Below, one piece after another: positions 23,850 through 62,741 of a stretch of 64,000 nucleotides of DNA. The notes below the pieces were generated by a model. The model worked only from the letters and a program-made list of their open reading frames with translations, was not told the origin of the DNA and ran no database searches. Position 1 is the stretch's first letter, and the number at the start of each line of letters is the position of its first letter. The stretch is taken from the IMG/VR virus record IMGVR_UViG_3300046559_001153, positions 62,001 to 126,000 of that record; one strand, 5' to 3'. A program made the translations under genes and the position numbers. The stretch comes from a virus.

Positions 23850-26735
23850 ATGATTGGTTCTCCGGTGCCCAGCGGTATGGGCGGTTACGGCGATCAGTTC
23901 CCTGATCCGTTTAACGACGTCGCGTCGATGAACATGCCATTGGGCATGCGATCGGCCTTGAGGACGTGCGAACGCATCTGGCTGGCATCCGGCTCGTACC
24001 GCATGGCCCAGCAGCGCATCTGCAGTTACTTCTTGACTGACATCCAGTTCAACGACTGCAGCGACGATGACCGATCTAAGTACACGGAGTTCGTCGAGGA
24101 CTTCGGTTTGCTGGAAGCCGAACAGCAGATGTACATCGATAGGGCGTGCTTCCATGGCGACGTGAAAGCCGTGACCAAGCACGGGGTTTTCAAACTTCGA
24201 GAGCTGGCTGGAAAGACTGTTGAAGTCCTGTCGCAAGGCGGCGAGTATCGACAAGCAACTTTCCAGTCGCACGGTCACCAGGCGTTATTGGAAGTGGCGT
24301 TTAGTGATGGTCGAACGATTTTGGCCACACCGGAACATGAGTGGACAGCTTTGAATTGTTCCGGCAAAAAGGTTGTCGTCCAGACAAAAGATCTGCACCA
24401 CGGGTATCGTATTCCTCGAGTTGTCGCCCCCCGACCAGAAAAAAATGAAGATTATTTTGAGGGGGTACGTCACGGTTTTGTTTTTGGTGATGGAACAGCC
24501 TACAACGATGAACGGCAGTCGGCCGCCATTTTTTATACGGCGAAAGACGACGAATTGATTCCCTATTTTGATGGCCACGGTGGGGAATTGAAACCGCGGC
24601 CATCTCGACCTGAACAGCGATATTTGCACGGTTTGCCCGGTCATTACAAGCAGCTGCCGTCTAACGATAAAAGCCCCAGCTACTGGTATGGTTTTGTTTG
24701 CGGATTTTTGGCCGCAGACGGCACTGTGGATACGTATGGTTGCGCCCTGTTGACGCAGATAGCCAAAGCGACTTTGGACGTAATTGTCGACCAGCTGCCC
24801 CGCATCGGGATGTGTGCTGGGCCAATTCGTGCTCAACGTCGAATTACCGACTTGAGAAAATACAGCGGCGAAAATGCCGTTTATGACAGCACAATTCACT
24901 TTGTCACGCTGTTGAAACGATTCATGCTGCCCCAGGATTTTCTGGTGACTAAGCACCGGATAAATTTCGAGGCGAATTTCAATTCGAAGTCGAATTATGG
25001 CAAGTACGTGCATATTAAGGCCATTCGTGAAACGGGTATCGTTGACGAGGTCTTTTGTTGTGCCGAAATGGAGACGCACACATTTGTCGTCGATCAGGCC
25101 ATTCTTACGAAGAATTGCTACGGAAATGCATTCGCTACGATCATGGTCCCGTTCAAGCGGATGCTGATGTGCCCGACAGCCAGTCGTGGATGTGGCAACC
25201 AGTACCCGTTGAAGGTCGTTTACAACGTCCCCAAATTCGCATTCAAATGGTCGCCATCGACCTGCGAATTTATCGCGACCTGCCCGCACTGCCAGTACCA
25301 CGGGCCATTCAAGGTCATCGATAATCCTGAGGACATGGAGAAACGCATCCGTGTAAAGACCTGGAATCCGCACGAGATCGAAATCCTGCACGACATGATG
25401 ACGGGCGATTGCGCCTACACATGGCGTATCCCCGAAGACTACAAGACTCAGATCCGTCGAGGAAACCTGTTCCATTTGGAACGTGTCTCCATGCCGGTTC
25501 TGCAGGCCATCAAAAAGAACCTGGTCTTTCGATTTCACGAGGATGTGCTCTTCCATATGAGGGAAGAGACGCCCAGCGGTATCCGTAACAGGGGCTGGGG
25601 AATTCCGCGGGCCCTGACGAACTTCCGTCAGGTGTACTACGTACAGGTGCTCAAACGGTACAACGAGGCCCTGGCCCTGGATTACATCATCCCCTTCCGG
25701 GTGATCACGCCGGTTGCCCGCCCGGGAGCGCTAGGCCCTGGCGCCCGAGCGTTGGATCCAATGGCCACAATGGACATGGGCGATTTCAGCTCCCAGGTCC
25801 GCAACATGATCCGCCGTCGACGACTCGACCCGGCCATGTGGTGCACGTTGCCATTCCCGATCCAGTATCAGGCCTTAGGCGGCGACGCGAGTCAGCTGGC
25901 GCCGAGCCAGTTGCTCGACCAAGGGCTCCAGCAGCTCCTGAATGACTCAGGGACGCCTCTCGAGCTGTACAACGGCTCTTTGACCGTCCAGACGGCCCCG
26001 GTGGCCCTGCGGCTGTTTGAGGCGACTAATACGCCCCTTGTACGGGCCGGCAATCAGTTCCTCAACTGGGCCATCAAGAAGGCCGCCCAGATCTTGCAGT
26101 GGGAACCTGTGAAGACCGCGAACAAGCGGGTCACCTACGCCGACGACGCATTGCGACAACAGTTGATCCTGCAGCTCATGACCGGGCAACAGGTCTCTCA
26201 GACGACCGGGCTCAGCGGTCTGGGTCTTGTCTTTACCGACGAGCAGAAGCGTCTGGCCGAAGAGGCCCGCGAGCAGGCCGATATCCGTACAAAGGTGCAA
26301 GACGAGATGGACGAAGCCGGTTTGTCCAAGGCCATGGTGCAGGGACCACAGGCTGGCGGGCAGCCTGGGGCGGCCGGTGGAGCAGCTCCTCCGGGTGGTG
26401 CGGCCCCTCCGGGCGGTGCTGGCGGTGCCAGTGCGTCTGGGCCTTCCCCGATCCCCGGGCAGTCAGACGCCATGCAGCCGGCAACAGCCTACTTGCAATC
26501 CAGGCCACCCGGCGGTCAGATCGACCTGCAAAGCTTCCAGCAGTCGGCCGATCAACTTGTTTCGGCCCTGGCGTCGCTACCTCACGAACAGCGGCAAAAG
26601 CAATTGCGAGAGCTGCGTGAGGGCGATCCGTCGATGCACCAGCTCGTCAGTGGTGGATTACAAAAAGCCAGACGTCAACAGAGCAGTCAGGGACAACAGG
26701 ATTCATCTCAGCAACCACCTCCCCAGGGGCAATGA
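23850..26735 (+). CDS. Portal-like protein interrupted by an intein
   Basis: A precursor of 961 residues. Removing the intein (residues 100-422) leaves a 638-residue protein that reads as a phage portal/head-tail connector type: N-terminal helices, a YGNAFATI motif right at the splice junction, a long central alpha region (RNMIRRRRLDPAMW), and a Gly/Ala/Pro/Gln-rich tail. After the junction CPTASRGCG and CPHC suggest a zinc ribbon, unusual for portals. No large terminase or capsid gene is next to it in this window. The portal assignment rests on the overall pattern. Confidence 0.6.
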   Translation: MIGSPVPSGMGGYGDQFPDPFNDVASMNMPLGMRSALRTCERIWLASGSYRMAQQRICSYFLTDIQFNDCSDDDRSKYTEFVEDFGLLEAEQQMYIDRACFHGDVKAVTKHGVFKLRELAGKTVEVLSQGGEYRQATFQSHGHQALLEVAFSDGRTILATPEHEWTALNCSGKKVVVQTKDLHHGYRIPRVVAPRPEKNEDYFEGVRHGFVFGDGTAYNDERQSAAIFYTAKDDELIPYFDGHGGELKPRPSRPEQRYLHGLPGHYKQLPSNDKSPSYWYGFVCGFLAADGTVDTYGCALLTQIAKATLDVIVDQLPRIGMCAGPIRAQRRITDLRKYSGENAVYDSTIHFVTLLKRFMLPQDFLVTKHRINFEANFNSKSNYGKYVHIKAIRETGIVDEVFCCAEMETHTFVVDQAILTKNCYGNAFATIMVPFKRMLMCPTASRGCGNQYPLKVVYNVPKFAFKWSPSTCEFIATCPHCQYHGPFKVIDNPEDMEKRIRVKTWNPHEIEILHDMMTGDCAYTWRIPEDYKTQIRRGNLFHLERVSMPVLQAIKKNLVFRFHEDVLFHMREETPSGIRNRGWGIPRALTNFRQVYYVQVLKRYNEALALDYIIPFRVITPVARPGALGPGARALDPMATMDMGDFSSQVRNMIRRRRLDPAMWCTLPFPIQYQALGGDASQLAPSQLLDQGLQQLLNDSGTPLELYNGSLTVQTAPVALRLFEATNTPLVRAGNQFLNWAIKKAAQILQWEPVKTANKRVTYADDALRQQLILQLMTGQQVSQTTGLSGLGLVFTDEQKRLAEEAREQADIRTKVQDEMDEAGLSKAMVQGPQAGGQPGAAGGAAPPGGAAPPGGAGGASASGPSPIPGQSDAMQPATAYLQSRPPGGQIDLQSFQQSADQLVSALASLPHEQRQKQLRELREGDPSMHQLVSGGLQKARRQQSSQGQQDSSQQPPPQGQ
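24147..25115 (+). mobile_element. Intein with LAGLIDADG endonuclease domain
   Basis: A 323-residue intein. Block A is CFHGDVKAVTKHGVFKLREL (starting at Cys100), block B GRTILATPEHEW with its His. Two LAGLIDADG-type helices are visible: GFVFGDGTA and GFVCGFLAADGTVD. Block F is EVFCCAEMETHTFVVDQ, and block G ends ILTKN, followed by extein Cys423. The residue before the terminal Asn is Lys, not the usual His. Both splice nucleophiles are Cys. Codon use is visibly more AT-rich than the exteins, consistent with later arrival. The second LAGLIDADG keeps its acidic residue; the first reads FGDG. Confidence 0.9.
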
Positions 26736-55623: not shown

Positions 55624-55968
55624 ATGCGAATTTTATCACCGATGACATTGGCGAGGATCATCGCCTTGCTGCCCGCCAGGTCTCAATTTGTATTGATAAC
55701 CGCGGTCAAGGAAGGCACGGGAGTCGACACGAACATCACTGATCCAAAGGTGGCTAAGATGTTCGTGCTCGAGACGGGGGCTGAGATGAGCCCTAAGGAT
55801 GCGGTCTGTCTTCATGACACGGATGGGGCTGGTGATTGTCAGCTGTGCGTCCGTGATCGAACGAAATGTCCACTCAACCCAGGAGAGAAGAATGGCGACG
55901 AGAAAGCTCACACACCAGATGATGGCCGACCTGTCCCTGCACAAACTGTTGGAGATCGGCCTGCGTGA
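55624..55968 (+). CDS. Unknown protein with read-through tail
   Basis: A 114-residue frame from ATG 55624 (GAAGGACTCACGG upstream). CLHDTDGAGDCQLCVRDRTKC in the middle may bind zinc. The last 26 residues overlap the next gene by 77 bases and look like an out-of-frame extension (Pro/Asp/Gly-rich). Confidence 0.55.
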   Translation: MRILSPMTLARIIALLPARSQFVLITAVKEGTGVDTNITDPKVAKMFVLETGAEMSPKDAVCLHDTDGAGDCQLCVRDRTKCPLNPGEKNGDEKAHTPDDGRPVPAQTVGDRPA

Positions 55969-56380
55969 TGTCAAGAAGCACGCGAAGACCCCAGGCTGTG
56001 TTGTGTACATGGGCACATGGCTGGAGACGTTGCAACCGCGTGCCCTTGACGACGAAGAGCCGGAGGCGCTGGCCACGTGTTTTGCTTGTATGGCCGGGTC
56101 TGTGATGAAGCAGACGTTTGGTATGTCACGTCATGAAGACATCGAGATTATGACGTCTACGCTACCCGAAGACGACCGCCGCGCAGCCTGTGAATGGACG
56201 ACAGTTTTGGACCATTTGCGATGCGGGCAAGTTGACAAGGCACTGACTGCGCTGGGACGCGATAGCGGTAAGCGTCTGCCCGTGAAGAATCGCAAGACAC
56301 CCGTGTACTCCAAAAGTCCGGCTAAGTGGTTCAAGGCCATGGAAAAGCTTCACGCTGAACTCAAAGCCGCCAACATCTAA
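55892..56380 (+). CDS. Paralogue family B member 2, unknown
   Basis: A 162-residue protein from ATG 55892 with AGGAGAGAAG upstream. Shares LHKLLEIGLRDVKKH, TPGCVVYMGTWL, CFACMAGSVM, LDHLRCGQVDKAL and KAMEKLHAELKAANI with the copies at 37009, 56394 and 59585. Confidence 0.65.
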   Translation: MATRKLTHQMMADLSLHKLLEIGLRDVKKHAKTPGCVVYMGTWLETLQPRALDDEEPEALATCFACMAGSVMKQTFGMSRHEDIEIMTSTLPEDDRRAACEWTTVLDHLRCGQVDKALTALGRDSGKRLPVKNRKTPVYSKSPAKWFKAMEKLHAELKAANI

Positions 56381-56393
56381 AAAGGAGCCGACA

Positions 56394-56840
56394 ATGCCCG
56401 AGACCAAACTGACCTGGCAGGAACTGAACACGTGGAAGCTGCACGAGCTGCTTGACTTGGCTCTGACCGATCTGAAGAAGCACGAGAATACGTCAGGCTG
56501 TGTCGTGAATATGTCCGTTTTCTTGTGGACCGGTGAAAGGCCTGGGGATAAATGCCAGGCTTGTCTGGCTGGAACTGTGTTACGACATTCGTTGGGACTG
56601 CTAAACCTGAGAGATTTGGTCAGCGGCGAGTCGCTTGATGTGCGGCAAGAGGCTCGCCGGTGGGTTTACGCAATCGATTACCTGCGGGCGGGCAGCGTGA
56701 GCCTGGCGCAAGAGGAGATGGATCGAGCAGAGCCGGCCGAGCCGATGGACCGAGTGGTTGTGGACTACCACGACGACCGCGACATGTGGCTCCACGACAT
56801 GACTCTGTTGCTGAGCGATCTTCGAGCGGCGAACCTTTAA
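56394..56840 (+). CDS. Paralogue family B member 3, unknown
   Basis: A 148-residue tandem neighbour: LHELLDLALTDLKKHENT, GCVVNMSVFLW, CQACLAGTVLRHSLGL, AIDYLRAGSV and LLLSDLRAANL. AAAGGAG precedes the ATG. Confidence 0.65.
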   Translation: MPETKLTWQELNTWKLHELLDLALTDLKKHENTSGCVVNMSVFLWTGERPGDKCQACLAGTVLRHSLGLLNLRDLVSGESLDVRQEARRWVYAIDYLRAGSVSLAQEEMDRAEPAEPMDRVVVDYHDDRDMWLHDMTLLLSDLRAANL

Positions 56841-59584: not shown

Positions 59585-60028
59585 ATGAGCGAAGGAACAA
59601 CCGTACATCCCGAACTGATGACCAAGCTGCACGAGCTGTTGGAACTAGCTCTGCACGACATGGAACTGTTCGAGCAACAGCCGGACTGCCACGTAGACAT
59701 GGATACCTGGCTTCGCCCTGGGTGGCCTGACGAGGGTGAGAATCCGAAGCACTGTTATGCTTGCTTGGCCGGCACGGTATGGCGAATGACGCTCGGGCTG
59801 GAAGACACACCATCCGCCACGGCTCCGAACTGGGCCAATGCCCTGAATCAGTTGCGATATGGTCGTGTCTCTGACGCCTACTTTTATCTTCCTGGTTGGG
59901 AAAAGGACGAAAACGACCGGGATGTCAGATACCTTAACAGAATCGTTTGGGATTACCATTCGTCACGGGTGCACTGGTGGAAGGCCATGAGGAAGCTGCT
60001 GGCCGATTTGAAAGAAGCCGACGTCTAA
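59585..60028 (+). CDS. Paralogue family B member 4, unknown
   Basis: A 147-residue protein: LHELLELALHDMELFEQ, CHVDMDTWL, CYACLAGTVWRMTLGL, ALNQLRYGRVSDAY, and WWKAMRKLLADLKEADV. The gap before it holds an imperfect hairpin (CTTTTTCTT/AAGAAAG) overlapping the Shine-Dalgarno. Confidence 0.65.
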   Translation: MSEGTTVHPELMTKLHELLELALHDMELFEQQPDCHVDMDTWLRPGWPDEGENPKHCYACLAGTVWRMTLGLEDTPSATAPNWANALNQLRYGRVSDAYFYLPGWEKDENDRDVRYLNRIVWDYHSSRVHWWKAMRKLLADLKEADV

Positions 60029-60042
60029 AAGAAAGAATCGTG

Positions 60043-61113
60043 ATGCAGTACAAAACTCTTGAAGAATTAGAAAAGCGGTTGAGTGAAGCGATTAACGATC
60101 CCCGGTCGTTGTTTGGCGCCGGGGATGATGTCGACACAACGCTGCAACGGATCCAGATCTTCTGCCATCCGGACAAGCATCCCTACCGTCGAGAGACGGC
60201 GACCAGGCTATTCGTCCTGGCTGGTCAACTGGCTGACAAGGCCCGCGGACCGGCCATGACAGTTACATCGCCCACCCGAGCGTACACGGTGGAACGGCGC
60301 CTGGCCTCAGGAGACGTGGCTGACGTCTACGTGGCGACAGGCAGGGACATCGTCAAACCTGTCGCCACCGTGACCAGGAACCGCATCCTGCTGCGTCCTG
60401 GGGTGTCGGAGCCCGATCAGACCTACACGATCAAGGTCAGCCGCATTCAGGGCGCCGAGGCCCTTCTGGACCGCGAGCAGAAGGTCCTGCTGGCGATTGA
60501 GAAGGCGGCGATCGATAAGAACCTGGACAACATGCGGTCCTATTACCCGACGTTGGTCGAGTCGTTCCCGGCCAAACAGCGGTTCCAGCGGCGGGTCAAC
60601 GTGTTCGTCCACCAGCCGGGCATGTTCACGTTCGAGCAGGTGGCTGATAAGCACCATCGTCTGGATGCCAGGCACAGTGTGTGGATCTTTAAGCGGTTGC
60701 TGACAGCCCTGGCGTTCGCCCACCAGCAGGGCATTGTCCATTCTGCCATCACGCCCGAGCACGTTATGATCAGGCCTGAGAATCACCAGGTCCAGATTAT
60801 TGGCTGGGGCCAGTCGGTTGCCGTGGGGCAGCCTATCAAGAGCTACCCGCTTAAGTACAAGCCGTACTACCCGGATGAGGCGTTCGCGAAGAGGCCGACC
60901 CACTCGGGGGCTGACATTCACATGGCGGCGTTCCTCGTCAGCCGGTGGACGGCATTTAAGGCGTCAGAAGAGTCGCTACGGATGTTTTTCAACGGCTGCA
61001 GGTGCGAAGGCCAGTGGCAGCGGCCGGTTGACGGGTTTGAGCTGTACGACGAGTTCGATCGCCTGGCTAAGCGTGTGTACGGGGATCCCAAATTCGTAGA
61101 ACTGAAAATGTGA
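60043..61113 (+). CDS. J-domain plus pseudokinase fusion protein
   Basis: A 356-residue protein. Residues 1-70 look like a DnaJ domain: helices around FCHPDKHPYRRETATRLF with HPD at 42-44. Residues about 80-350 follow the Hanks kinase order: glycine loop LASGDVADVY (88-95), TIKVSR Lys131, QQGIVHSAITPEHVMI where HRD is replaced by HSA (233-235), and IIGWGQS in place of DFG (254-256). Both catalytic Asp are missing, so a pseudokinase is likely. It might recruit a host Hsp70 (DnaK) through HPD and a client through the kinase fold. Confidence 0.65.
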   Translation: MQYKTLEELEKRLSEAINDPRSLFGAGDDVDTTLQRIQIFCHPDKHPYRRETATRLFVLAGQLADKARGPAMTVTSPTRAYTVERRLASGDVADVYVATGRDIVKPVATVTRNRILLRPGVSEPDQTYTIKVSRIQGAEALLDREQKVLLAIEKAAIDKNLDNMRSYYPTLVESFPAKQRFQRRVNVFVHQPGMFTFEQVADKHHRLDARHSVWIFKRLLTALAFAHQQGIVHSAITPEHVMIRPENHQVQIIGWGQSVAVGQPIKSYPLKYKPYYPDEAFAKRPTHSGADIHMAAFLVSRWTAFKASEESLRMFFNGCRCEGQWQRPVDGFELYDEFDRLAKRVYGDPKFVELKM

Positions 61114-62072: not shown

Positions 62073-62741
62073 ATGGCAATCCGAAATGAAAACGGAATCC
62101 TGTATGATGACAGAAACAACTCCGCGAGCATTGAGTATTGGGGCAGCGAGGAAGCGGCGCGAAAGGCGCTAGAGTCATTGGTGAACTGCTCCGACTGCTC
62201 CCGCTGCTCCGGCTGCTCCGACTGCTCCCGCTGCTCCGGCTGCTCCGACTGCTCCCGCTGCTCCGACTGCTCCCGCTGCTCCGACTGCTCCCGCTGCTCC
62301 GACTGCTCCGACTGCTCCCGCTGCTCCGACTGCTCCCGCTGCTCCGACTGCTCCGGCTGCTCCGACTGCTCCCGCTGCTCCGACTGCTCCCGCTGCTACG
62401 ACTGCTCCCGCTGCTCCGGCTGCTCCCGCATAGTGCCTCAAAAAGTCACTATTGAAATTCCATTTATCACCGAAATCCACAAGACAATCTATGCCGCAGT
62501 CTCACAGCCAAAAGCTCTGAACATGAGCGACTGGCACACGTGCGAGACGACGCATTGCCGGGCTGGATGGGTCGTGACGCTCGCGGGCGAGGCGGGTAAG
62601 AAATTGGAGAAACAAACGTCGCCACTGTTCGCAGCCCAACAAATCTACAAAGCCAGCGGGTATGAGATTTCGCCTGTGCGGTTCTTCGACTCGAACGAGG
62701 AAGCGATGGCCGATATGAAGCGTCTGGCGGAAGTTGACTGA
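62073..62741 (+). CDS. Cys-Ser triplet repeat protein with HCxAGW domain
   Basis: A 222-residue protein. Residues 39-119 are 27 uninterrupted C-S-x triplets (x is Asp, Arg or Gly; one unit is CYD). The C-terminal 95 residues carry WHTCETTHCRAGWVVTLAG, the motif also in the gene at 40633. A Cys every third residue could give a solenoid or dense metal site. AAAGGA precedes the ATG. No named family matches the array. Confidence 0.65.
   Translation: MAIRNENGILYDDRNNSASIEYWGSEEAARKALESLVNCSDCSRCSGCSDCSRCSGCSDCSRCSDCSRCSDCSRCSDCSDCSRCSDCSRCSDCSGCSDCSRCSDCSRCYDCSRCSGCSRIVPQKVTIEIPFITEIHKTIYAAVSQPKALNMSDWHTCETTHCRAGWVVTLAGEAGKKLEKQTSPLFAAQQIYKASGYEISPVRFFDSNEEAMADMKRLAEVD
62187..62429 (+). repeat. 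In-frame 9-nt tandem repeat (TGC-TCC-NNC)
   Basis: 27 copies of TGC TCC followed by GAC, CGC or GGC, with only one substituted unit (TGC TAC GAC). The perfect codon conservation of TGC TCC points to recent expansion by slippage, not old selection alone. Confidence 0.95.

Follow-up and report, generated by a model that had tools for sequence, protein, structure and literature searches.

A predicted J-domain/pseudokinase fusion protein heads a gene module with vWA-like and PurA-like partners in large phages, plasmids and bacteria

Single chains that combine a J domain with a kinase are known: auxilin/GAK is a J-domain/kinase chimera and DNAJB1-PRKACA is an oncogenic fusion. The latter (PDB 4wb7) was among the PDB matches of our J profile and, like the viral protein described here, has a J domain and a kinase in one chain; unlike the viral protein, both DNAJB1-PRKACA and auxilin/GAK are active kinases, and their origin is unrelated. 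The nearest described arrangement is the TerY-P triad, which in the accessible text of the corresponding report comprises a vWA protein, a PP2C protein and a Ser/Thr kinase with a C-terminal zinc ribbon, and of which stand-alone, antiphage TerY-P-like modules are also reported there (PMC11090510). For the wider Ter network, a nucleotide signal has been proposed in the available portion of another paper, which also records DNAJ co-chaperones in jumbo phages (PMC7824862). A phage J protein with a known effect is Rki of RB43, which, according to the accessible text, binds DnaK, is toxic through DnaK and stabilises sigma-32 (PMC3486835). Rki and the jumbo-phage DNAJ proteins resemble the present protein in being phage-encoded J domains expected to use host DnaK, but differ from it in that the available text describes no fusion to a kinase fold for either (PMC3486835, PMC7824862). 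The open-licence literature, which takes in few subscription papers, yielded no description of a J-pseudokinase or of a vWA/PurA-like module in the text available, and the accessible parts of PMC9503650, PMC10892097 and PMC12619734 do not describe them; for one phage group, the available text of PMC10892097 names an adenylosuccinate synthase and, as a separate entry, a vWA gene. The J-pseudokinase/vWA/PurA-like module is thus apparently undescribed.

The DNA analyzed here is a stretch of 64,000 nucleotides (the window), corresponding to positions 62001-126000 of a 224,270-base IMG/VR virus record (IMGVR_UViG_3300046559_001153; G000). The fusion gene lies on the plus strand at 60043..61113 of the window, running from the ATG at 60043 to the stop at 61113, as the first-pass annotation had placed it; it encodes 356 amino acids and is present as a single copy in the whole record. 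Just upstream (59585-60028) is the last of three similar small proteins with a CxACLAGTV-type motif, the others being at 55799-56380 and 56394-56840; by eye these are seemingly paralogs, and the one next to the fusion gene has no Pfam match. Further along, an ORF at 62073-62741 contains many CSDCSRC-type cysteine-rich repeats in a row and then an unrelated C-terminal region; it likewise has no Pfam match. Elsewhere in the window, a 961-aa ORF at 23850-26735 seems, by eye, to bear an intein-like insert.

The N terminus had been read as a J-domain-like stretch containing HPD, and this was borne out. AlphaFold2, run for the full protein on a 46-sequence alignment, gave a mean pLDDT of 92.6 and a pTM of 0.83, and predicted helices at residues 6-15, 28-40 and 47-67, with the HPD loop (residues 42-44; 60166..60174, +) between the second and third, i.e., the layout of a J domain (residues 1-68; 60043..60246, +), followed by the N-lobe and C-lobe of a kinase. 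Helices II and III thus flank HPD in the model. Comparing the isolated J segment with known structures gave no decisive result. The first 75 residues modelled on their own with AlphaFold2 gave a pLDDT of 85.5; Foldseek placed DnaJ domains at ranks 1-3 with non-significant E-values of 0.39 or worse, and the best VIA-align match was to a DnaJ-like domain (Z 6.9, rmsd 3.7 over 70 residues), designed helical bundles scoring nearly as high. The identity of the J domain rests on sequence profiles. A Pfam search with the fusion protein alone gave no match to the J domain (PF00226). A 29-member profile matched solved J domains with a best value of 1.4e-14, and a 17-member profile of the protein's own closest group, built without canonical J sequences, matched solved DnaJ domains with a best value of 3.9e-8. 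Furthermore, leave-one-out J profiles scored the fusion protein at 20.5 and 22.7 bits, whereas the best of 20,000 sequences made by shuffling residues 1-75 reached 12.3 and 13.1 bits against the same profiles. We therefore consider the J assignment, made by sequence comparison, weak for this single sequence and firm for its family. Helix II, over the 13 residues before HPD, has a net charge of -1 (median of +2 in 50 relatives); a basic helix II is usual, although not defining, in J-domain proteins.

The J part is joined to a complete kinase fold (residues 69-350; 60247..61092, +), in agreement with the Hanks-kinase-like fold named in the first-pass annotation. With the fusion protein alone, the Pfam Pkinase match (1.3e-6) was below the curated cut-off, and the region matched phrog_3043, labelled 'kinase', at 6.9e-30. 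Foldseek with the full model returned kinases, and VIA-align ranked PknB of M. tuberculosis first, with a Z of 25.4 and an rmsd of 2.1 over 231 residues (model residues 69-346), so that the fold found for residues 80-350 is that of a kinase. In the AlphaFold2 model, the last helix stops at residue 346 of the 356, and no additional domain follows. Two residues of the ATP site are kept, the beta-3 lysine K131 (60433..60435, +) and the alpha-C glutamate E145. The catalytic residues are replaced: HRD reads HSA (residues 233-235; 60739..60747, +), putting A235 in the place of the catalytic Asp, the catalytic-loop Asn is H240, and DFG reads GWG (residues 254-256; 60802..60810, +), with G254 for the metal-binding Asp. 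Both altered motifs had been recognized earlier. The accompanying statement that the lysine and the glycine loop are retained holds for the lysine and fails for the loop, where GxGxxG reads LASGDVADV and one of three glycines is left. Because the HRD Asp, the loop Asn and the DFG Asp are lost, along with two of the three loop glycines, the protein is, as judged from its sequence, a pseudokinase and not an active Hanks-type protein kinase (PF00069). The combination of a J domain and a dead kinase in one protein is supported. PADLOC and NCBIfam matches (PD-T4-6, MkoA, MAD6 and PknB) reflected the generic kinase fold and fell far below the curated NCBIfam cut-offs, and the protein was accordingly not classed as a defence protein.

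When the single fusion protein was used as the query, a scan of viral contigs returned no relative, and alignments were needed. A search of phage records gave 191 matches among 50,697 at E <= 0.01, and 190 of these were mycobacteriophages, whose orthologs (~190) are annotated as 'kinase' or 'serine/threonine kinase'. Further members were found on many jumbo-phage contigs and some plasmids, and LR745208, a 485-kb uncultured phage, encodes a canonical J domain (PF00226, 1e-14) with an intact kinase (7.1e-29). For conservation, we used 59 unique viral sequences; the weak kinase hit L151 and identical sequences were dropped, near-identical pairs such as L207/L208 and L093/L100 were kept, and plasmid members were outside this set. 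HPD was kept in 50/59 and the full Asp/Asn/Asp triad in 8/59, and the comparison of HPD with the kinase core proposed earlier thus came out in favor of HPD among viral members. Many of the 51 members without the full triad also lacked the beta-3 Lys, and H248, the His after the catalytic loop, was kept in 58/59. In an alignment of 55 viral sequences, conservation reached 90% or more in no columns other than H42, P43, D44, P169, W214, H233, H248 and D291, and Pfam detected DnaJ (PF00226) in 35/55 (E <= 0.01) and Pkinase in 23/55. Among the nine of 59 without HPD, L169 and L056 have an altered motif and still match the J profile, and seven gave no J match.

Bacterial members carried an N-terminal CPxC zinc-ribbon-like segment in 40 of 41 sequences. 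In a tree of 76 kinase domains, these zinc-ribbon rows formed one clade (support 100/99), and J-bearing rows were spread over all the major viral groups. An ancestral J domain is plausible from this tree, whose root is not fixed, but not proven by it. The C-terminal YGDPKFV of the window protein (residues 346-352; 61078..61098, +) corresponds to a family [FY]GxPxF motif, which is kept from phage members to the zinc-ribbon bacterial relatives. A Xanthomonadaceae host for L011 and L012 was considered and is unsupported; the kinase-like ORF of L012 resembles those of Variovorax loci.

Among the named relatives are the 'serine/threonine kinase' proteins of Bixzunavirus (phrog_3043). Alice gp246, annotated as 'kinase', is 34% identical over residues 127-356. 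Like the window protein, to which it is an ortholog, it has HPD and a dead catalytic loop and is followed by vWA-like and PurA-like genes; unlike the window protein, it keeps the catalytic Asn and the Asp at the DFG position, and its three genes are tightly clustered. HPD was found in all five aligned Bixzunavirus sequences (5/5), each of which reads HGA where HRD is expected; with Ala at the position of the HRD Asp, the annotation 'kinase' appears to be mistaken. The order in Alice is the kinase-family gene, then an intein-bearing vWA-like gene and then the PurA-like gene (PF00709, 1.4e-54). The insert in the Alice vWA-like protein (L001:4756-6540) is Hint/intein-like, with weak Pfam Hint/intein matches, and is absent from the Breeniome copy (L009).

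The same order, kinase, vWA-like and PurA-like on one strand, was observed in the virus studied here, where the trio extends over 9.3 kb and is interrupted by other genes. The vWA-like gene (G000:127218-128264; phrog_2971, 4.1e-65) and the PurA-like gene (G000:130136-131356; PF00709, 5.8e-41 at 130166-131164) lie beyond the end of the window, just outside it, on the same strand as the fusion gene, and a NUDIX gene (4.7e-15) is located at G000:132148-132573. When the partners were used as the key for viral scans, 77 vWA-like loci were obtained, and 80 PurA-like loci were kept of 142. The vWA-keyed loci had a PurA-like gene in 63/77 and a kinase-like gene in 29/77 within about 9 kb, and the PurA-keyed loci had a vWA-like gene in 76/80 and a kinase-like gene in 42/80; the vWA-keyed set is the fairer, because PurA-keyed loci contain PurA by construction. 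In the 57 viral loci with all three genes, the order was kinase, vWA, PurA in 53 and vWA, PurA, kinase in 4, always on one strand. A kinase-keyed scan of bacterial genomes found a vWA-like gene in 37/39 loci and all three genes in 35/39, three of the four incomplete loci being short contigs or contig ends; bacterial L054 was rejected as a family member, being an ordinary kinase. Plasmids of R. opacus (Rhodococcus) and Tsukamurella encode J-pseudokinase, vWA-like, PurA-like and NUDIX proteins in a row, and on an A. vitis plasmid the first three are accompanied by a divergent NUDIX gene. Together, these results place the kinase-family gene at the head of a conserved set, with a vWA-like and a PurA-like gene, that recurs in large phages, plasmids and bacteria.

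The vWA-like family has no Pfam match, and we use the label for its likeness to vWA proteins, on the basis of a DxTGS-like MIDAS motif, present in 156 of 161 vWA-like neighbors, and of a layout that we take to be that of a vWA domain. The PurA-like ORFs of viruses carry GDxGKG in 137/145. The TTGR loop of adenylosuccinate synthetase binds aspartate; it is present in the two solved synthetases that were aligned, and the pattern T[TS]G[RK] was found in 0/145 viral PurA-like ORFs, with [WYF]QGxxR instead in 100/145. Without this loop, the viral enzymes may act on something other than aspartate. PurZ, the Z-genome enzyme, was rejected as the identity of the PurA-like partner (35 bits with the NCBIfam model, against a cut-off of 300). 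NUDIX or NAD-salvage-like genes were often found near the module, including clusters near vWA/PurA that we presume to be NadM-like (18 loci) and NadV-like (16 loci). In Vibrio phage Va1, a NADAR gene (L211:4182-4832, 9.7e-49) lies upstream of the vWA-like and PurA-like genes, and no kinase-family gene is annotated in that stretch.

The partners also occur without the kinase. In 84 loci with vWA-like and/or PurA-like genes there was no kinase match in the fetched flank, and 23 whole records of such loci had no full kinase match anywhere, which argues that the J-pseudokinase adaptor is an accessory of the module; 8 of the 23 records had a J-only match elsewhere. A separate J gene close by was not borne out, as the J profile matched only kinase-family ORFs among 3,900 neighbor ORFs. 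One unnamed family (L077:8603-8974 and 21 other loci), directly upstream of the vWA-like gene in its 22 kinase-less loci, perhaps takes the place of the adaptor. A second unnamed family (L172:6062-6853 and 13 other loci) was seen near the vWA-like gene, and a protein of ~519 aa (L123:498-2057 and 8 other loci), which may be a TROVE/Ro60 protein, within a few kb of it.

The 8 unique viral sequences with an intact triad formed one clade (support 100/100). All of their loci had a gene for a pyruvate-kinase-barrel protein beside the vWA-like gene and none had a PurA-like gene nearby; this barrel protein (L128:9629-10654 and 9 other loci; PF00224 at 6.2e-8 in L005) was found beside the vWA-like gene only where the J-kinase is intact. 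When 10 whole intact-kinase records were searched, PF00709 gave a single full-length hit (511 bits), which lay ~57 kb away from the kinase gene. For triad-less sequences, a PurA-like gene was in the locus for 48 of 51, that of the window virus makes 49, and two loci (L119 and L055) stop at contig ends. PP2C_2 was detected in 5/9 intact-kinase records and in 0/36 dead-kinase records (25 plus 11); the record of the present virus had no PP2C_2 (PF13672) match (0/1) in a search that finds 7 of 14 controls. PP2C was not adjacent to the kinase in the two records where it was placed (L114 and L121), and two of the five positive records (L122 and L123) are close, apparently near-identical copies. The link of an intact kinase to the pyruvate-kinase barrel and PP2C may thus represent one or two events, given the single clade and these near copies. 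The pattern fits a kinase/phosphatase switch kept in one lineage and lost in others.

Compared to TerY-P, the module likewise pairs a kinase-fold protein with a vWA-like protein, and the one viral clade with an intact kinase has PP2C in over half of its records. It differs in that the present kinase is dead, the extra domain is N-terminal (J, or a zinc ribbon in one bacterial clade), PP2C_2 is not matched in this virus record and a PurA-like enzyme stands in the third place.

We favor, tentatively and at somewhat under an even chance, a reading in which the protein would be a J-domain/pseudokinase adaptor, a subunit of the module that brings host DnaK to a vWA/PurA-like complex; both DnaK binding and the client are what we infer. 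The pseudokinase would bind the vWA-like partner, the J domain would recruit host DnaK, and DnaK would then load, open or stabilise the vWA/PurA-like complex and so may gate synthesis of a purine-derived nucleotide during infection, a purine-nucleotide output being our best guess. The likeliest ancestor would be a J-kinase/vWA/PP2C switch of the TerY-P type; in one viral clade the kinase is still intact, and several of its records still have a PP2C phosphatase. No HSP70 gene was found in this virus record (0/1) or in the records of relatives (0/36), and a working J domain would therefore have to use host DnaK. The first-pass annotation had offered a scaffold steering host DnaK to a client, which is plausible and consistent with HPD being conserved above the kinase core and with the lack of a viral HSP70 match; its other suggestion, an anti-host signalling decoy, found no support, and the conserved vWA-like/PurA-like linkage suggests that what the protein serves is the module and not necessarily host signalling. 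Evidence against the adaptor reading comes from the non-basic helix II (net charge of -1) and from the loss of the J domain in some members. These two observations would suit a J domain that no longer engages Hsp70 and is retained for dimerisation or for docking to the vWA-like protein, with the pseudokinase as the functional core, as would the zinc ribbon that stands in its place in a bacterial clade (support 100/99). However, few motifs of the viral family are as well conserved as HPD, a degree of conservation that a J domain with a purely structural role would not need, and we hold this explanation to be unlikely.

A new class of mobile signalling or defence module spanning jumbo phages, plasmids and bacteria, in which the J-pseudokinase would link cellular Hsp70 with a vWA-like platform and with a repurposed adenylosuccinate synthetase making a purine-derived signal or inhibitor, appears possible, if on the doubtful side; here too a TerY-P-like switch would be the ancestor, with chaperone recruitment replacing phosphorylation. 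We give slightly less credence than to a structural J domain to a free-standing DnaK hijacker resembling RB43 Rki, whose J domain would tie up or redirect host DnaK while the pseudokinase captures a host client, the neighboring genes being unrelated. Rki itself, in the accessible text, is a precedent for a phage J protein with that effect (PMC3486835), and the lack of a viral HSP70 match and the non-adjacency of the three genes in this virus point the same way; the tight vWA-like/PurA-like linkage speaks against it, since most relatives show it, among them those on plasmids and in bacterial genomes, where the cell is not being taken over by a phage. Finally, the kinase fold could keep an unusual catalysis, e.g., nucleotidyl transfer, despite its lost residues, and then not be a pseudokinase at all. 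Other transfer chemistries are known among pseudokinases, the ATP-site Lys and Glu are kept and H248 is near-invariant (58/59), but with all three metal- or proton-handling residues gone from this protein, a single loop glycine left, and 51/59 viral members without the full triad, many also without the Lys, we regard it as very improbable.

For the mycobacteriophages, the analysis recasts the 'serine/threonine kinase' of ~190 sequenced phages as a J-domain pseudokinase open to experiment, and links it with two uncharacterized companion genes. Were the adaptor reading true, a signalling switch would have traded phosphorylation for Hsp70 recruitment, and a likely unrecognized nucleotide enzyme, spread across jumbo phages, would have been pointed out.
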